The notes below the pieces were generated by a model. The model was not told the origin of the DNA. It did not search any database and saw only the letters and a program-made list of their open reading frames with translations. The position numbers and the translations under genes were made by a program. 64,000 nucleotides of DNA from Gammaproteobacteria bacterium. Its GTDB lineage: Bacteria > Pseudomonadota > Gammaproteobacteria > UBA4575. Positions 49,545-57,206 of the stretch are shown here, in pieces; the stretch's first letter is position 1, and each line of letters starts with the position of its first letter. Where the stretch lies: positions 72,955-136,954 of the forward strand of contig WTFY01000008.1 of the NCBI GenBank assembly GCA_011523795.1, written 5' to 3'.

Positions 49545-49880
49545 CTAGGCTACGTTCCAGACCAATGCATAGCCTGACCTGTCCACATGGCCCTGGTTGT
49601 CAACAATGATGATTTCAGCCCCACATGACCGCACGGCCTGATTGAGAGGGCTGCTAAACACCAGCTTTCGAAACTGACTATATCCAGTGTGAGCGAATAT
49701 CGTGTTCTGGCACTGAAGGAAAGCGTGGAGGTCTGGCAATGAGAAACACCAGCGACCCGGTTCGATGCTGAAGTTCAAATCAAGTTCCAGTTTTTCCAGC
49801 ACATTCTGGTCTTTTCGAGCTGCCTGCTTGAAAAAAGAGACAAGCTCCCGCTGTGCGGCATCGTCAGCAATAGATTCCAC
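49545..49880 (-). CDS. hypothetical protein downstream of cynS
   Basis: 111 residues from a GTG start (codon at 49880). The codons just upstream remain open for about 10 residues and look coding, so the true start may be earlier, with the 5' part disrupted. No family recognised. Residues 1-30 are helical and charged; the rest mixes strands (EIIIVDNQGHVDRSG). It lies 92 bp after the cynS stop on the same strand, so it may be in the cyn transcript. Confidence 0.55.
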   Translation of the reverse strand: MESIADDAAQRELVSFFKQAARKDQNVLEKLELDLNFSIEPGRWCFSLPDLHAFLQCQNTIFAHTGYSQFRKLVFSSPLNQAVRSCGAEIIIVDNQGHVDRSGYALVWNVA

Positions 49881-49972: not shown

Positions 49973-50413
49973 TCACCACGCACTGTATTTCAGGAATTTG
50001 CCATTCAAGGTAAGGATGACTCGGTCACCTTTGGGGTTTTCCTCCTTGTCGATGTCCATGGAGAAATCAATCGCACTCATGATTCCGTCACCGAATTTTT
50101 CGTGAATGATTTCCTTGATCGTGTATCCGTACACACCAACAATTTCGTACAGCCGGTAAATCACGGGGTCTTGCGGGATCGTCTTTTCCCATGACTTGCA
50201 CGGGAACTCCTGCAGTGCTGCACAGACGTTTTCGTCCAGCTCGAGCACCTCACACAGGCTTTTTGCTATATTTTCCGGCATGCTGTTCATTCCGAAACAG
50301 GCAGAGGCCACCCACGTTTCACCCATGCCTACCTTGCTGGCAATAGCCTCCCAGGTTAATCCTTTCGCCTTTTTTGATGAGATGATCAAATCAGTCATTT
50401 CTTCTTTAGTCAT
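49973..50413 (-). CDS. cynS: cyanate hydratase (cyanase)
   Basis: A 146-residue cyanase that reacts cyanate with bicarbonate to give ammonia and CO2 via carbamate. The catalytic residues are intact: Arg87 and Glu90 in YRLYE and Ser113 in GDGIMSAIDF (Arg96, Glu99, Ser122 in E. coli). The N-terminal half is the helix-turn-helix-like decamer domain. GGAG lies upstream of the ATG. A sigma-54-type promoter and NtrC-like sites are upstream. Cyanate may come from the outside or from partial oxidation of thiocyanate; the thiocyanate hydrolase operon faces away 1.8 kb off. Confidence 0.96.
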   Translation of the reverse strand: MTKEEMTDLIISSKKAKGLTWEAIASKVGMGETWVASACFGMNSMPENIAKSLCEVLELDENVCAALQEFPCKSWEKTIPQDPVIYRLYEIVGVYGYTIKEIIHEKFGDGIMSAIDFSMDIDKEENPKGDRVILTLNGKFLKYSAW

Positions 50414-50449: not shown

Positions 50450-50465
50450 AGCAAAAAGCAGGCCA
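50450..50465 (-). promoter_or_regulatory. sigma-54-type promoter for cynS
   Basis: Read on the minus strand: TGGCCTG-CTTT-TTGCT, with GG-N10-GC spacing and only one mismatch to TGGCAYR-N4-TTGCW. The predicted transcript starts about 25-30 bp before the cynS ATG at 50413. Confidence 0.72.
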
Positions 50466-50537
50466 ACTCCTGTTTTGGCCTATACAAGCGGATAAGGGTC
50501 GATCCGGAGTAGGTGGAATTCGGCAAGGAACTGGTGA

Positions 50538-50564
50538 TGCACTATTTTGGTGCGCCAATGCACC
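50538..50564. promoter_or_regulatory. NtrC-type enhancer with three phased half-sites
   Basis: TGCAC-TATTTT-GGTGC (50538-50553) is a near-perfect NtrC dyad. The GGTGC then shares a second dyad with GCACC at 50560-50564 (N6 spacer). The half-sites are thus spaced 11 bp, one helical turn. They lie 73-114 bp upstream of the cynS sigma-54-type promoter. Confidence 0.7.
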
Positions 50565-50644
50565 TCTGTTGACGACATCCAAATCAGGCAGGTCATGCAT
50601 ACCCAGCCGTGAGAAAGCGCACAAATGCAGAGCAAGTATGAAAA

Positions 50645-51577
50645 TTACAGCATTTGTTTTTCATGGAGCATGCGTGAAGACCAATCCGATGCCAATTCAA
50701 GAAACGCTGTGCATGCAGGGCTCTTGTAGCCGCCCTTGTTCCAGACCAGGCTGACGGTATGGTGGGGAAGTTCTGGTACCACTTCTATAGGATTTAGCCC
50801 GGGTTGTGTATTGATAATTGTGTTGGGCAGTACCGTCGCGAGCATGCCGAGTTCTACCATTTCGATGATTACGGTGAGGGAATTGGTTTCGATTGCGATG
50901 TGCGGTTCAATGCTATGGTCATGGCAGTATCGATCAATATGATGACGCAATGCGAAGTCTGAATTGAGCTGTACCAGTGATTCCTTTGCAAATTCCTGCA
51001 AGCTCATCCGTCTCTTGCGGTTGACAAGGGGATGGTCTTTGCCAACCGCCAGGTACAGTGCCTCTTCAAACAGTGTGAATGTTTCAGTGGGACCTGATAG
51101 ATCTTCTGGGCCGGCGGGCTTGCTGAATGTGATGCCAATATCAATCCGGGCTTCTGATATTGCAGACTCGATGTCATCTTGGGGCATGTCGAGGGTGCTC
51201 AGGGTGATGCCAGGATACCGGCTGTTGTAATGAGCCAGCAAGGAACAGGTCAGGTAGTCTGTAATTGGCGTCCATCCCAGCCGCAGAGAACCTCGAGACA
51301 GATTTTTAATATCATGAATTGCCCGGGTACCCGCATTCAGTTCTCCCCAGGCACGCCGCGCATGACGCACGTAGATTTTTCCAGCGTCTGTGAGCTTTAC
51401 TGTTCGTCCGGACCTGTCCAGTAGGGGAGATTTGAGATAGTCCTCCAGCTGCTTGATTTGCTGCGATAAGGTGGGTTGAGAGACATGTAAAGTTTCCGCA
51501 GCTCGTGTATAACTCCCATGTTCTGCGATCGCAATTAGATACTGTAGAGAGCGTGGGAAAATATCCCTACGGTCCAT
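50645..51577 (-). CDS. LysR-type transcriptional regulator, CynR-like
   Basis: A 310-residue LysR protein. The winged helix-turn-helix (about residues 8-65) carries SLQYLIAIAEHGSYTRAAET and LHVSQPTLSQQIKQLED; the periplasmic-binding-like effector domain follows. It most resembles the CynR/CysB-like group, on similarity and on its place between cynS and the scn operon. Start ATG 51577 has AGGAG seven bases before. Its start codon lies within a perfect T-N11-A dyad. The effector could be cyanate or thiocyanate; this is inference. Confidence 0.88.
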   Translation of the reverse strand: MDRRDIFPRSLQYLIAIAEHGSYTRAAETLHVSQPTLSQQIKQLEDYLKSPLLDRSGRTVKLTDAGKIYVRHARRAWGELNAGTRAIHDIKNLSRGSLRLGWTPITDYLTCSLLAHYNSRYPGITLSTLDMPQDDIESAISEARIDIGITFSKPAGPEDLSGPTETFTLFEEALYLAVGKDHPLVNRKRRMSLQEFAKESLVQLNSDFALRHHIDRYCHDHSIEPHIAIETNSLTVIIEMVELGMLATVLPNTIINTQPGLNPIEVVPELPHHTVSLVWNKGGYKSPACTAFLELASDWSSRMLHEKQML

Positions 51578-51592
51578 AGTTAACTCCTATGG
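51574..51592. promoter_or_regulatory. LysR-type box overlapping the regulator's start
   Basis: CCATAG-N7-CTATGG is a perfect 6+6 dyad containing ATAG-N7-CTAT, i.e. the T-N11-A LysR box. It covers the start codon of the LysR gene and lies 170 bp before scnB. A partial copy of its core (TAACTCCT at 51581-51588) recurs at 51626-51633. This suits autorepression and divergent control of scn. Confidence 0.6.
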
Positions 51593-51759
51593 GTTTAATA
51601 AATATAAAGTCTTGGATTAATAACATAACTCCTTTAGACTGTCATTATTAAATATGTACGCCCTATAAAATAAGTAAATAAGAAGATACTAAGATACTTT
51701 GATTTCACGGGTTGCAAAACAACTAATTTGCTAATCAATTTAAGGAGGAATCTAAGGTT

Positions 51760-52191
51760 ATGTCATCCGATACCAGACAGAGAGTCTTGCGGCATATTGA
51801 CCTTGTGGGCCAACTGCAACCGGCCTTACATCAGCCGCAGCATGCACCGCTTCCCACCGAGGTTGACAATGCCCATTTCAGGGCTTACATGCGTACGTCG
51901 CATGATGTGGGTGGCGAACCTGATGTATCCATTCGGTGGCATGAAAAAGAAGAAGAGCAGTGGGAGCTGAATACATACGTGACCTGCGAATGCCTGGCAT
52001 GGCGTGGCGTCTGGAACGCCGAAGAAAGGCGCCGTCGGCAGAATGTTGATCTTGGACAGACACAGTACTTGGGTCTGCCATATTATGGGCGTTGGTTACT
52101 GTCAGCGGCCAGGATCATGGTCGACAAGCAGCACATCACTCTCACAGAATTAATCAACAAGATTGATGAGGTCAAAAAGCGCTATGAGTAG
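51760..52191 (+). CDS. scnB: thiocyanate hydrolase beta subunit
   Basis: A 143-residue protein matching the N-terminal domain of nitrile hydratase beta, which in thiocyanate hydrolase is a separate subunit (beta, ScnB; 157 in Thiobacillus thioparus). Typical stretch: NAHFRAYMRTSHDVGGEPDV. The start follows AGGAGG (51743-51748). Gene order B-A-C is that of T. thioparus. It forms the enzyme with ScnA and ScnC, hydrolysing SCN- to carbonyl sulfide and ammonia. It overlaps scnA by 8 bp. Confidence 0.92.
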   Translation: MSSDTRQRVLRHIDLVGQLQPALHQPQHAPLPTEVDNAHFRAYMRTSHDVGGEPDVSIRWHEKEEEQWELNTYVTCECLAWRGVWNAEERRRRQNVDLGQTQYLGLPYYGRWLLSAARIMVDKQHITLTELINKIDEVKKRYE

Positions 52192-52537
52192 AGGTCATCA
52201 TGCCGAAAAGGCTACGGGGAAAGGCGACCCCCAGTGTTTTGCAGGTGAGGCTGGAGAGCCAAAATTCAAGGTCGGTGACCGGGTTCGGATTCGTGATTTG
52301 CCGGATGTTTTCTACACCAGGTGCCAAGTATATACCCGGGGAGCGGAAGGTGTAGTAACTGTTGTGACACACGAGAGTCCTGCTCCGGAAGACGAGGCTT
52401 GGGATAACGTTGATGATCCCGAGTGGTTTTACATTGTGCGTTTCAAGCAGAAGGACCTCTGGCCTGAGTATCCTGATGCCTATGCTAACGACACATTGCA
52501 GACTGAGTTTTCCGAGCGCTGGCTCGAGCCTGTATAA
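52184..52537 (+). CDS. scnA: thiocyanate hydrolase alpha subunit
   Basis: A 117-residue protein equal to the C-terminal SH3-like domain of nitrile hydratase beta (FKVGDRVRIRDLPDVFYTR, GAEGVVTVV, ERWLEPV). In SCNase this is the alpha subunit (126 in T. thioparus). ATG 52184 is preferred (MSRGHHAEKATG), overlapping the scnB stop; a TTG at 52163 is in frame. The split of one beta-type chain into ScnB and ScnA distinguishes SCNase from nitrile hydratase. Confidence 0.92.
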   Translation: MSRGHHAEKATGKGDPQCFAGEAGEPKFKVGDRVRIRDLPDVFYTRCQVYTRGAEGVVTVVTHESPAPEDEAWDNVDDPEWFYIVRFKQKDLWPEYPDAYANDTLQTEFSERWLEPV

Positions 52538-52601
52538 GACGACCAACGCGGTTCAACGTATAACAGAGAACAGAATACAGAGGATTAAAGAGGACAAGAT
52601 T

Positions 52602-53294
52602 ATGGCTCAAGATCATAAAGCTGCACCTATGGTGGATGAGGTCAGCGAATTCGAAGTGCTGGAAATTGCCGTTCGTGAACTAGCGATCGAAAAAGGTCTT
52701 TTCAGTGCAGAAGACCATCGGCGTTTCGCGGAGTTTGCGCACAGTATAGGACCATTGCCGGCTGCACGGCTGGTGGCCAAGGCTTGGCTGGACCCAGAGT
52801 TCAAGAAGCTTGCACTTGAAGATGGTTTCACTGCGAGCAAGGAAGTGGGCATTGACTGGCTGAATCCAACAGGATTTGGAACACCCAGTGATTACTGTGA
52901 CCTGCGTGTCCTGGAAAATACGCCTTCGTTGCATAACGTGGTGGTATGTACACTGTGTTCGTGCTACCCGCGGCCAATTTTGGGACACTCTCCCGAGTGG
53001 TACCGTACGCCAAACTATCGTCGCAGACTGGTTCGGTGGCCTAGGCAGGTACTGGCCGAATTTGGTTTGCAGATTCCTGCTGATGTTGAGATCAGGGTCG
53101 AAGACTCGAACCAGAAATGCAGGTTTATGGTCATGCCTATGCGGCCTGAAGGTACGGAAGACTGGACTGAGGATCAGCTTACGGAAATTGTGACTCGTGA
53201 CTGCATGCTTGGGGTGGCACTGCCACATCCTGACCGTAAGGGGGATGACAGGCGACCGGTACACAAGGCAGCTAACCCGGTACACGGGCACTAG
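52602..53294 (+). CDS. scnC: thiocyanate hydrolase gamma subunit (cobalt site)
   Basis: A 230-residue catalytic subunit homologous to nitrile hydratase alpha. The metal claw CTLCSC is at Cys116, Cys119, Ser120 and Cys121; in SCNase, Cys119 and Cys121 equivalents are oxidised to sulfinic and sulfenic acids. The Thr in CTLCSC is the cobalt-type signature. Also family-typical: NTPSLHNVVV before it and YRRRLVRWPRQVL after. ATG 52602 has GAGGA upstream. The alternative, cobalt nitrile hydratase, is disfavoured by the separate ScnA and ScnB chains. Confidence 0.94.
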   Translation: MAQDHKAAPMVDEVSEFEVLEIAVRELAIEKGLFSAEDHRRFAEFAHSIGPLPAARLVAKAWLDPEFKKLALEDGFTASKEVGIDWLNPTGFGTPSDYCDLRVLENTPSLHNVVVCTLCSCYPRPILGHSPEWYRTPNYRRRLVRWPRQVLAEFGLQIPADVEIRVEDSNQKCRFMVMPMRPEGTEDWTEDQLTEIVTRDCMLGVALPHPDRKGDDRRPVHKAANPVHGH

Positions 53295-53300
53295 GCGAAC

Positions 53301-53684
53301 ATGACGACCTTGAGGAAAAACAATCCTGAAGCCGAAGTCCCGAATTCTGAATTTTCGCCGATTTCGCTTCTGGAGAAGGTTCGAGAACAGGGCAGGGTGT
53401 GGGAAGACCTTGCCAAGCAGTATGGTGTAGATAACGCAGACCCACCCTGGAAGATCAATCTGGACTCAACATGTGAAGCACTTGCTGCTGAGCAGTGTAC
53501 GTTGCCTGTGCTGGAACGGCGCAATGAAGAAGATGTGCTTTCCGAAACACTTTACAAGGACGTACCGTACCCGGAACGCCAACTCCTGGCGCTTGTACAT
53601 TCAATGATACAACGTGGACTGATTGATGAAGAGGAGCTTGCTGCGCGTATGAAATTTATCGACAAACGCCTGAATAGCGCTTGA
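53301..53684 (+). CDS. thiocyanate hydrolase activator (P15K-like)
   Basis: A 127-residue protein seven bases after scnC. It resembles P15K of T. thioparus and nitrile hydratase activators (which help insert cobalt and oxidise the claw cysteines): W-rich PPWKINLDSTCEALAAEQ and PYPERQLLALVHSMIQRG. Its place and length match P15K (about 15 kDa). The chaperone role is from the literature on that protein. Confidence 0.85.
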   Translation: MTTLRKNNPEAEVPNSEFSPISLLEKVREQGRVWEDLAKQYGVDNADPPWKINLDSTCEALAAEQCTLPVLERRNEEDVLSETLYKDVPYPERQLLALVHSMIQRGLIDEEELAARMKFIDKRLNSA

Positions 53685-53753
53685 TACTCTCGACAGTACC
53701 TGTTTTGAGTGTTGAATTGGGAGCAGTGAAGCAAACACGAATTAAGGAGTAAT

Positions 53754-54116
53754 ATGGCCAAGATATTTATGAAGTCTTCATGGGGCAGTGATGATCCGAC
53801 CCGCGCTGCCATGGTATTTGGGCATGCCAATGCACTGGCGAGCAAAGGTCATGAAGTACGAATCTTTTTACTCGGAGAAGCGGTATGCTTGGCACGGCCT
53901 GTTGTACGTGAAAACATGATTCCGCTTGGATGGCCGTCTGTTGCCGAACAATGGGATGAAGCGATTGGAAATGGAGTCCGGATTGAGTGCTGCGGAGCGT
54001 GTTCGAGAGCCCGTGGAATCAGTGAAGAGGACATGGCGAAAGCCAGGGCGCAGCCAGGCAATCCTGATACGTTTGTGGAAGACGTAGAGTGGTCGGACAA
54101 GATCATTGCAGAATGA
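53754..54116 (+). CDS. DsrE/DsrF-like protein in the scn operon
   Basis: A 120-residue DsrE-family protein: KIFMKSSWGSDDPTRAAMVFGHANAL start and the conserved cysteine region CCGACSRARGI. Family members carry or relay sulfur (DsrE, TusD) or bind small ligands. AAGGAG precedes the ATG. Within a thiocyanate operon it could relate to the sulfur released (carbonyl sulfide or sulfide), but this is a guess. It is short, with no partner DsrF or DsrH. Confidence 0.82.
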   Translation: MAKIFMKSSWGSDDPTRAAMVFGHANALASKGHEVRIFLLGEAVCLARPVVRENMIPLGWPSVAEQWDEAIGNGVRIECCGACSRARGISEEDMAKARAQPGNPDTFVEDVEWSDKIIAE

Positions 54117-54177
54117 CCCGTTGAAAATGCATTGGACCATTTTGACTGTGCCCGGAAAACAGTATAGAGGCTAAAGG

Positions 54178-55002
54178 ATGGAAAACCGCAGCGGTGTTCA
54201 AATCAGCATCAAGGATCTTACTCATCGGTATACGGCAAGAAGCCCCATTACCTTTGACAAGGTTAACGTCTCTGCAGACCCAGGTGAGGCACTGGTTATC
54301 ATTGGACGGTCCGGATGCGGCAAATCTACGCTTCTCCATATTCTTGCCGGGTTGCTGGATAAGACATCTGGCACTGTGCAGATTGACGGTAAAGATGTCA
54401 CGGCTCCTTCATCTAGGTGGATCATGATGTTTCAGGCACCGCATCTTTTTCCTTGGATGACGGTTGAGCAGAATGTTGGCACAGGCTTGCGATTTGCCCG
54501 ATGGCCTGAGGACAAGATCAAAAACCGGGTAAATGAGGTGATTGGTCTGGTACATCTTGAAGAATTTGCCCGAAATAACACACAGGATCTTTCCGGCGGA
54601 CAGCAGCAACGTGTAGCTCTTGCGCGCTCTTTGGTCATGGAGCCGGATATGCTGCTCCTGGATGAGCCCTTTTCTGCGCTGGATGCCTTTACACGTGCAA
54701 CCTTGCAGAAGGATGTCAGGGCCATCTCAAAGCAACTAGGTGTTAACCTGGTGATGGTTACCCACGACATTGATGAGGCAGTAATCATGGCTGATCGCGC
54801 ACTGGTTATGGCTGGCTCACCCGGCAAAATTGTTCATGACTTCAAAGTAGACCTTGACGACCCGCGCGAAAGACAGGACCCTACTGTTCAGGAAATGCGC
54901 GCAAGACTGATGCAGATATTCCATGAAGCAGCCGGCACACCGGCTGCTTCTGATGATGAGGACAGTGATGCCGCAACCGAGGCCGAGTTGGTTGGCAACT
55001 GA
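54178..55002 (+). CDS. ABC transporter ATPase, NrtD/SsuB/CynD-like
   Basis: A 274-residue ABC ATPase of the nitrate/sulfonate/taurine/cyanate group. Walker A GRSGCGKSTLLHI, signature LSGGQQQRVALARSL, Walker B MLLLDEPFSALDAFTR, H-switch VMVTHDIDEAV. An acidic C-terminal tail (DDEDSDAATEAE) is unusual. It heads the three transporter genes in the scn operon, suggesting thiocyanate or cyanate import. In cyanobacteria, CynABD transports cyanate next to cynS. Confidence 0.88.
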   Translation: MENRSGVQISIKDLTHRYTARSPITFDKVNVSADPGEALVIIGRSGCGKSTLLHILAGLLDKTSGTVQIDGKDVTAPSSRWIMMFQAPHLFPWMTVEQNVGTGLRFARWPEDKIKNRVNEVIGLVHLEEFARNNTQDLSGGQQQRVALARSLVMEPDMLLLDEPFSALDAFTRATLQKDVRAISKQLGVNLVMVTHDIDEAVIMADRALVMAGSPGKIVHDFKVDLDDPRERQDPTVQEMRARLMQIFHEAAGTPAASDDEDSDAATEAELVGN

Positions 55003-55065
55003 ATTGGCCTGAAAGTGCACTTCAGGCTTTGTAATGATGAGAGTAATGATGAGGGGAATTCCGAC

Positions 55066-56361
55066 ATGAAGAAAATTTATGAAAAACATGGCGACGGGAT
55101 ACAGAATGATGATCCCAGGCTCGCCATTGAATATGACCCCCTGTTCAAGGGGGTACTCGGTACCGGTATCAACCGGCGCGAATTGCTTCAGGTAGGAGGC
55201 TTAGCTGCCTTGGGAGGAGGCGCAAGTGCCTTACCCATGCCTACCTTTGCAGCCAAGAAAAAATGGGATCCAGTAATCAAGATTGGCTATATTCCTATCA
55301 CTGACGCAGCTGCTTTGCTGATTGCCCATGATCAGGGATATTTCAAGGATGAGGGTATCGACTCTGTGAAGCCAACCCTTATACGTGGGTGGTCTCCACT
55401 CGTTGAGGCATTCGCAGCACACCGGTTTAACCTTACACATATGTTGATTCCGATACCAGTCTGGATGCGCTATAACAATAAGTATCCTATCAAGATCACA
55501 GCTTGGGACCACACCAATGGTTCTGCCGTGCTGGTTGGTAAGAAGAGTGGTATCAATGAGCCCAAGGATTTTGGAGGCAAGCAGTTCGCCGTACCTTACT
55601 GGTATTCGATCCACAACATTGTGTCGCAGCGGATCATGAAGGCTGCAGGCATCAAGCCGGTGATCAAGCCACAGTCTGCCAAGCTGGCTCCGGATGAGTG
55701 CAACTTCCTAGTGCTGGCACCACCGTCCATGCCACCTGCCTTGGCTGCGGGTACGATAGACGGCTATTGCGTAGCCGAACCGTTTAATGCGCTGGGTGAA
55801 CTCAAGGCAGGAGGAAAGGTCCTGCGCTTTACAGGTGATGCCTGGAAAGGGCACCCCTGCTGCGTGGTGGTCATGCATGAAGAAGATGCAATGGACCCTG
55901 ACCGTGCAGCTTGGGCACAGGGAGTCCATAATGCAGTAGTCAGAGCGCAGATTCTTCTTGCAGAAAACAGGGAGTCGATGTCTGAAATTCTGTCTCGTGA
56001 TGGCAAGGGCTATTTGCCCGTCCCGAAAGAAGTCGTGAAGCGGGCCATGATGTTCTATGATCCTGCATACTACAAGAATCCGCCTGCAATCAAGCATCCG
56101 GAATGGGATCAGAACCGGATCGATTTTCAGGCATGGCCGTACAGGTCCGCTACCGAGTTGGTAGTGAGTGACCTGAAAGAAACAGTCGTTACAGGGGATG
56201 CGAGATTCCTGGATACGCTCACACCTGAGCATGTAGCGAACGACCTCGTCAATTATGACTTTGTGAAAACTGCTTTGGAGGCTAATCCGAAGTGGAGGAA
56301 TGACGCAAGTGTTCCCAAGGAAGGTGACCCGTACATTCGTTCGGAGGTGTTCGTACTTTGA
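55066..56361 (+). CDS. ABC transporter substrate-binding protein, NrtA/CynA-like, Tat-exported
   Basis: A 431-residue binding protein of the NrtA/TauA class. The N-terminal 65 residues hold a twin-arginine signal (NRREL at 36-40, with a following hydrophobic run GGLAALGGGASALP), so export through Tat as a folded protein is predicted. The mature protein starts like NrtA: IKIGYIPITDAAALLIAHDQG. Starts at ATG 55066 after GAGGGG; the frame extends upstream but not convincingly. The ligand is probably a linear pseudohalide anion, from position only. Confidence 0.85.
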   Translation: MKKIYEKHGDGIQNDDPRLAIEYDPLFKGVLGTGINRRELLQVGGLAALGGGASALPMPTFAAKKKWDPVIKIGYIPITDAAALLIAHDQGYFKDEGIDSVKPTLIRGWSPLVEAFAAHRFNLTHMLIPIPVWMRYNNKYPIKITAWDHTNGSAVLVGKKSGINEPKDFGGKQFAVPYWYSIHNIVSQRIMKAAGIKPVIKPQSAKLAPDECNFLVLAPPSMPPALAAGTIDGYCVAEPFNALGELKAGGKVLRFTGDAWKGHPCCVVVMHEEDAMDPDRAAWAQGVHNAVVRAQILLAENRESMSEILSRDGKGYLPVPKEVVKRAMMFYDPAYYKNPPAIKHPEWDQNRIDFQAWPYRSATELVVSDLKETVVTGDARFLDTLTPEHVANDLVNYDFVKTALEANPKWRNDASVPKEGDPYIRSEVFVL

Positions 56362-57206
56362 GTAACGGGAAAGCTGATGTAGCCAATACCGATACAACTG
56401 CTGCATCGTCACAGGCTGTCAAAAGTACAGCGGCTACTGCAAAATCTGTAGGAAAAAGCCTGTTCAACTGGGCGGCTGGCCTTGCAATCCTGTTAGTGCT
56501 TTGGTGGTTTGGTGGTTATCTAATTGAGATCAACCCTGCTACAACAAACTTCAAGGACTTTGGGCCGATACCTACGTTCAAGGCAATCCCGTATCTGCTG
56601 GAGGCAGGTAAGATCCAGGCCGCTGTCTTTACCAGTGGTTATCGTCTGGGTGCAGGTTTGCTCATTGCTATTGTCTGCGGGATCCCCATAGGGATCCTGC
56701 TCGGACGCAGCAAGGTCTTCCGTGAGTTGAGCAATTCACCATTTCAGTTGATCCGTATGATCAGTCCTCTCTCTTGGGAGCCTATCGCGGTAATTGTGTT
56801 TGCGACATGGAACGGGGCCATTATCTTCCTGATAGCTGTTGCGGCAGTTTGGCCAGTAGTGTTTGCTACTGCAGCGGGGTTGGCCAAGGTAGATCCTGCT
56901 TGGTTCAAGGTTGCTCGCAACCTTGGTGCCAAGCCCTGGCATATGGTAACGCAGATCATTCTGCCAGCCATCCTGTTCGATATTCTTACAGGAGTCAGGT
57001 TGGCTCTGGGTGTGGGCTGGATTGTGCTGGTACCTGCTGAATTTCTCGGGGTTACATCAGGCCTGGGCTACTCCATTGCTGATGCCAGGGAGACGCTTTC
57101 CTATGACCATCTCACTGCGATGGTGCTTACTATCGGGATTATGGGTTACATACTTGACAGTTCCTGTGCGATGCTGATCAAGCGTTACAGTTGGCATCAC
57201 TCGTGA
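56358..57206 (+). CDS. ABC transporter permease, NrtB/TauC-like
   Basis: A 282-residue permease with about six helices and the EAA loop LGAKPWHMVTQIILPAI. A polar, Ala/Thr-rich N-terminal tail of about 35 residues precedes the first helix. It starts at a TTG (56358) overlapping the binding-protein stop, with GGAGG ten bases upstream. It completes the importer with the two genes before it. Confidence 0.88.
   Translation: MSNGKADVANTDTTAASSQAVKSTAATAKSVGKSLFNWAAGLAILLVLWWFGGYLIEINPATTNFKDFGPIPTFKAIPYLLEAGKIQAAVFTSGYRLGAGLLIAIVCGIPIGILLGRSKVFRELSNSPFQLIRMISPLSWEPIAVIVFATWNGAIIFLIAVAAVWPVVFATAAGLAKVDPAWFKVARNLGAKPWHMVTQIILPAILFDILTGVRLALGVGWIVLVPAEFLGVTSGLGYSIADARETLSYDHLTAMVLTIGIMGYILDSSCAMLIKRYSWHHS

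Follow-up and report, generated by a model that had tools for sequence, protein, structure and literature searches.

Cyanase converts cyanate to ammonia. In E. coli the gene of the regulator CynR is oriented divergently from cynTSX. In Pseudomonas pseudoalcaligenes the cyanase gene of the cynFABDS cluster lies behind a putative sigma-54 promoter and is repressed by ammonium; the dedicated, divergently encoded regulator CynF is essential and an ABC transporter is part of the operon (PMC6627978). The Thiobacillus thioparus genes for thiocyanate hydrolase (scnABC), a NitT/TauT ABC transporter and a DsrE-like protein are found together with a cyanase gene (PMC5328954), and in a survey of 2025 cyanate lyase appeared among the predicted sigma-54 targets enriched in the alpha- and gammaproteobacteria (PMC12316311). 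Cyanase is already known as a target of sigma-54, and direct control of cynS by NtrC, as predicted here, would add a member to a well-known regulon. The literature searched, the coverage of which was incomplete, yielded no description of NtrC boxes upstream of cynS.

The locus studied here, part of a 64-kb stretch of DNA (the window), shares features with each of these systems and differs from each. Its cynS (49973-50413, minus strand; 146 aa) was identified by NCBIfam profile matches (PRK02866, 206.8 bits with a cut-off of 150; TIGR00673, 175.7 bits with a cut-off of 113.3) and is the sole cyanase gene in the 2.07-Mb draft genome searched. As in E. coli, a gene for a CynR-like LysR regulator (50645-51577, minus strand; NCBIfam CynR PRK11242, 358 bits with a cut-off of 277) lies beside cynS. 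Unlike in E. coli, that gene is codirectional with cynS, as the preliminary description of this DNA had also read it, separated from it by a gap of 231 bp, and divergent from the thiocyanate hydrolase gene scnB; the arrangement of a LysR gene divergent from cynS with the operator in between is absent. The gene set resembles that of T. thioparus, but cynS lies on the opposite strand, with the LysR gene in between and a predicted sigma-54/NtrC promoter of its own. The locus also differs from cynFABDS: it has NtrC boxes, there is no CynF gene next to cynS, which has its own promoter, the regulator is of the LysR type and the transporter is encoded on the opposite strand together with the scn genes.

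The predicted sigma-54 promoter and NtrC boxes of cynS

A putative sigma-54 promoter, TGGCCTG-CTTT-TTGCT (TGGCCTGCTTTTTGCT; 50465-50450, minus strand), precedes cynS. It deviates at one position from the consensus used for scoring (TGGCAYR-N4-TTGCW), and the GG at -24 and the GC at -12 are intact. The element had been placed 37 bp before cynS in the preliminary description; the sequence and its close upstream position stand, and the distance to the ATG measures 36 bp. A ribosome-binding region (GGAG) precedes the gene. The intact GG-N10-GC near the start codon is what an NtrC-activated sigma-54 promoter should display. Sites of this quality (at most one mismatch, GG and GC intact) number three in the whole window, and when the 300 bp upstream of cynS were shuffled by dinucleotides, an equally good one turned up in 21 of 2000 sequences.

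Further upstream lies a candidate NtrC box, CGCACCAAAATAGTGCA (50554-50538, minus strand), with one mismatch to TGCACY-N5-RGTGCA and in agreement with the NtrC box TGCACCAnnnTGGTGCA published for E. coli (PMC8743547). Its centre precedes the -24 GG by 82 bp, within the range of some 80-150 bp upstream expected for the 17-bp boxes of NtrC-activated promoters. A box as good as this was obtained in 11 of 2000 dinucleotide shuffles of the same 300-bp region. Pattern searches of the 2.07-Mb draft genome returned boxes with at most one mismatch at 23 places, about one per 90 kb: a single perfect one, in front of glnA, and 22 with one mismatch, to which the cynS box belongs. Among the 17 of these places that were examined, only glnA and cynS combine the box with a correctly placed sigma-54 site of no more than one mismatch.

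A second, degenerate box, TCGTCAACAGAGGTGCA (50559-50575, minus strand), is found 21 bp from the proximal one. Only its inner half, AGGTGCA, remains in the window genome, and relatives carry a fuller dyad at the same place. The preliminary description had noted three half-sites one helical turn apart, and the coordinates are exact: on the plus strand TGCAC (50538-50542), GGTGC (50549-50553) and GCACC (50560-50564) follow each other with N6 spacers, in steps of 11 bp. Its reading of them as two overlapping dyads, by contrast, has to be replaced. The GGTGC-N6-GCACC pair was rejected as a unit, since the pair is not conserved and GCACC is the inner half of the separate distal box, the outer half of which has decayed in the window genome. 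Because the relatives hold a dyad 21 bp from the proximal box, the predicted layout is that of two separate 17-bp boxes, two helical turns apart.

The genome encodes the required machinery: RpoN (230 bits, cut-off 22.8), NtrC (697.8 bits, curated cut-off 558.6) and NtrB, whose gene adjoins ntrC, with glnA beside both. The C-terminal domain of this NtrC could be aligned to 1ntc, a solved structure of the NtrC DNA-binding domain (E 1.1e-15). Two further full-length NtrC-like activators are encoded elsewhere in the genome. The glnA promoter of the window genome consists of the boxes TGCACCAAATTGGTGTG and TGCACTAATATAGTGCA, 21 bp apart, and the sigma-54 promoter TGGCACAACTTGTGCT, and the glnA genes of the family genomes G015 and G018 are built in the same way. 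The cynS and glnA promoters of the window genome thus share NtrC boxes, their 21-bp spacing and a sigma-54 promoter; they differ in that one of the two boxes at cynS is degenerate, and in the distance from box to promoter, which is 82-85 bp at cynS in the family and 97 bp at glnA. A full NtrC and glnA were not detected in the draft genome G016, nor was RpoN in the draft genome G015, in both cases probably because of gaps in the drafts.

Conservation of the cynS upstream region in the family

The family comprises 19 genomes, the same 19 that make up the order, and eight of them carry cynS. Conservation in relatives, which the preliminary description had put forward as the test of its reading, was found: all eight genomes have, within 300 bp upstream of cynS, an NtrC box with no more than one mismatch, compared with one of the 72 cynS loci outside the family (Fisher p 3e-10, a value that overstates independence because the sequences are related). 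A good sigma-54 site (at most one mismatch) is present in six of the eight, namely the five genus members and G005. A seventh site is in place in G001, with GT for GC at -12, and G003 has kept one NtrC box with no sigma-54 site in place. In all seven genomes with a sigma-54-type site in place, 82-85 bp separate the GG from the centre of the box. Among the five genus members 21 of the 30 motif columns upstream of cynS are invariant, against 7 of the 150 other columns; the motifs have thus been retained while the DNA around them drifted.

Of seven relatives compared, six have a recognisable dyad, fuller or partly decayed, at the position of the distal box, in each case with the 21-bp spacing to the proximal one: TGGGCTATGCAGGTGCA (L051), CGCAAGATTTTAGTGCA (L052), TGCATCGTTTTGGTGCG (L053), TGCATTGTTTTAGTGCA (L055), TGCGTCATCTTGGTGCG (L056) and TGCACGATCTCGGTGCA (L050). 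The remaining locus, L061, has the proximal box alone, with no distal dyad. One of the relatives, IP29b, stems from a coral-skeleton sample.

In G001 and G005 the NtrC boxes occur with cynS, though no thiocyanate cluster is nearby and no CynR-like gene adjoins, and the box is absent at three loci outside the family (L054, L057 and L087) that have the same scn-cynR-cynS order as the window. Within the family the predicted control therefore follows cynS and not the cluster. At 11 of the 72 cynS loci outside the family, too, a sigma-54 site with no more than one mismatch was found; shuffling of the upstream regions from the family gave such sites in some 0-2%. Three Mailhella MAG loci (L119, L121 and L123) have perfect sigma-54 sites 53-54 bp before the cynS starts (2933, 2863 and 2912, respectively), with no NtrC box before cynS, which suggests that another sigma-54 activator operates there.

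An unannotated 111-aa protein without a Pfam match is encoded downstream of cynS and codirectional with it (49545-49880, minus strand). It is kept after cynS in ten of the loci fetched, with 40-62% identity, and may be transcribed from the cynS promoter.

The CynR-like regulator and the thiocyanate genes

On the other side of the CynR-like gene the plus strand encodes a thiocyanate hydrolase (SCNase), recognised by its cobalt-type gamma subunit ScnC (52599-53294; TIGR03887, 398.8 bits with a cut-off of 291.45) and by split beta-like subunits. The subunits encoded by scnB (51760-52191) and scnA (52187-52537) are beta/alpha-like, the NHase_beta_N and NHase_beta_C halves occurring as separate genes. 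Plus-strand genes follow at 53301-57206 for an accessory protein with a weak match to the NHase beta N-terminus, a DsrE-like protein and a NitT/TauT-type ABC transporter (ATPase, substrate-binding protein and permease). The gene order from 51760 to 57206 is kept in the genus relatives and in G003.

The divergent regulatory region between cynR and scnB (51578-51759) contains a strongly conserved block that adjoins cynR. This block (51578-51640; ATTAATCCAAGACTTTATATTTAT when read on the strand of cynR) shows hardly any variation within the genus, is partly kept in L054 and L061, and is likely to be a LysR operator. Control of the thiocyanate cluster by NtrC and sigma-54 was considered and rejected, as the divergent region has neither an NtrC nor a sigma-54 site in seven genomes. 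The CynR-like protein probably controls the thiocyanate hydrolase and transporter genes, and it is likely that the LysR protein governs thiocyanate use and NtrC governs cyanase. More tentatively, and in our estimate with somewhat less than an even chance, the control of the pathway has been split, such that thiocyanate uptake and hydrolysis are under the CynR-like regulator facing scnB, cyanase alone has been moved to NtrC, and the pair of boxes is eroding to one in some species. The LysR protein may still provide an input to cynS, by read-through or by binding, so that the freedom of cyanase from substrate control suggested in the preliminary description is not established; the CynR-like gene is kept beside cynS in the genus.

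Probable nitrogen control of cynS and alternative explanations

We consider it very probable that cynS has a sigma-54 promoter of its own, from which NtrC switches on transcription under nitrogen shortage. The nitrogen control through sigma-54 and NtrC proposed in the preliminary description is in this respect supported by the encoded machinery, the glnA-like promoter and the conservation. In the mechanism that we infer from sequence, including NtrC binding, its phosphorylation, the start site and expression under nitrogen limitation, NtrB would phosphorylate NtrC when nitrogen is short. Dimers of NtrC-P would then bind the 17-bp box or boxes centred some 105-110 bp before the predicted transcription start; most relatives have two such boxes with the 21-bp spacing, and the window genome has one good and one degenerate box. 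The DNA would loop, NtrC would remodel the sigma-54 holoenzyme as at glnA, and the cyanase produced would free ammonium from cyanate.

The alternative that deserves most weight, though we think it unlikely, is that cynS is chiefly expressed from a joint transcript with cynR, which precedes it, under the (substrate-dependent) control of the LysR protein, to which NtrC would add an input. The two genes are codirectional across the 231-bp gap, their order is kept in the genus, and the LysR protein exceeds the CynR cut-off. However, within the gap conservation is conspicuous only at the NtrC boxes, the sigma-54 site and the ribosome-binding region, and in G001 and G005 the boxes occur where no CynR-like gene adjoins. 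It is far less probable that the promoter is driven by a cyanate-specific sigma-54 activator and not by NtrC. Such an activator has a precedent in CynF, which together with sigma-54 is needed for the cyanase of P. pseudoalcaligenes (PMC6627978), and the two additional full-length sigma-54 activators of the genome could provide one; but the neighbour of cynS is a LysR gene and no sigma-54 activator gene, and the box before cynS is the same as the NtrC box that this genome has at glnA, the 21-bp spacing included.

Equally improbable in our view is that the GG-N10-GC merely forms the 3' portion of an intrinsic cynR terminator and that cynS is transcribed from elsewhere. A terminator-like hairpin (50482-50459, minus strand; stem TAGGCCAA/TTGGCCTG, followed by CTTTTTG) does overlap the -24 element and folds with -12.4 kcal/mol, yet this fold is no better than those of shuffles (z -0.95), and the four genus relatives lack the hairpin, whereas all of them retain the GG-N10-GC, with its distance to the NtrC box fixed. 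The hairpin may well, in addition, end cynR transcription in the window genome.

The understanding of NtrC itself is unchanged by the predicted control of cynS, which offers a clean case of NtrC boxes retained amid drifting DNA and indicates that cyanase genes beside CynR-like regulators need not answer to cyanate alone. Since the cynS switch was kept while the nearby DNA changed, and since it closely resembles the glnA switch, cyanate is probably a nitrogen source for this bacterium when ammonia is scarce. For this uncultured family of Gammaproteobacteria the prediction would place cyanate in the nitrogen-scavenging regulon, with the genes for thiocyanate hydrolase close by.
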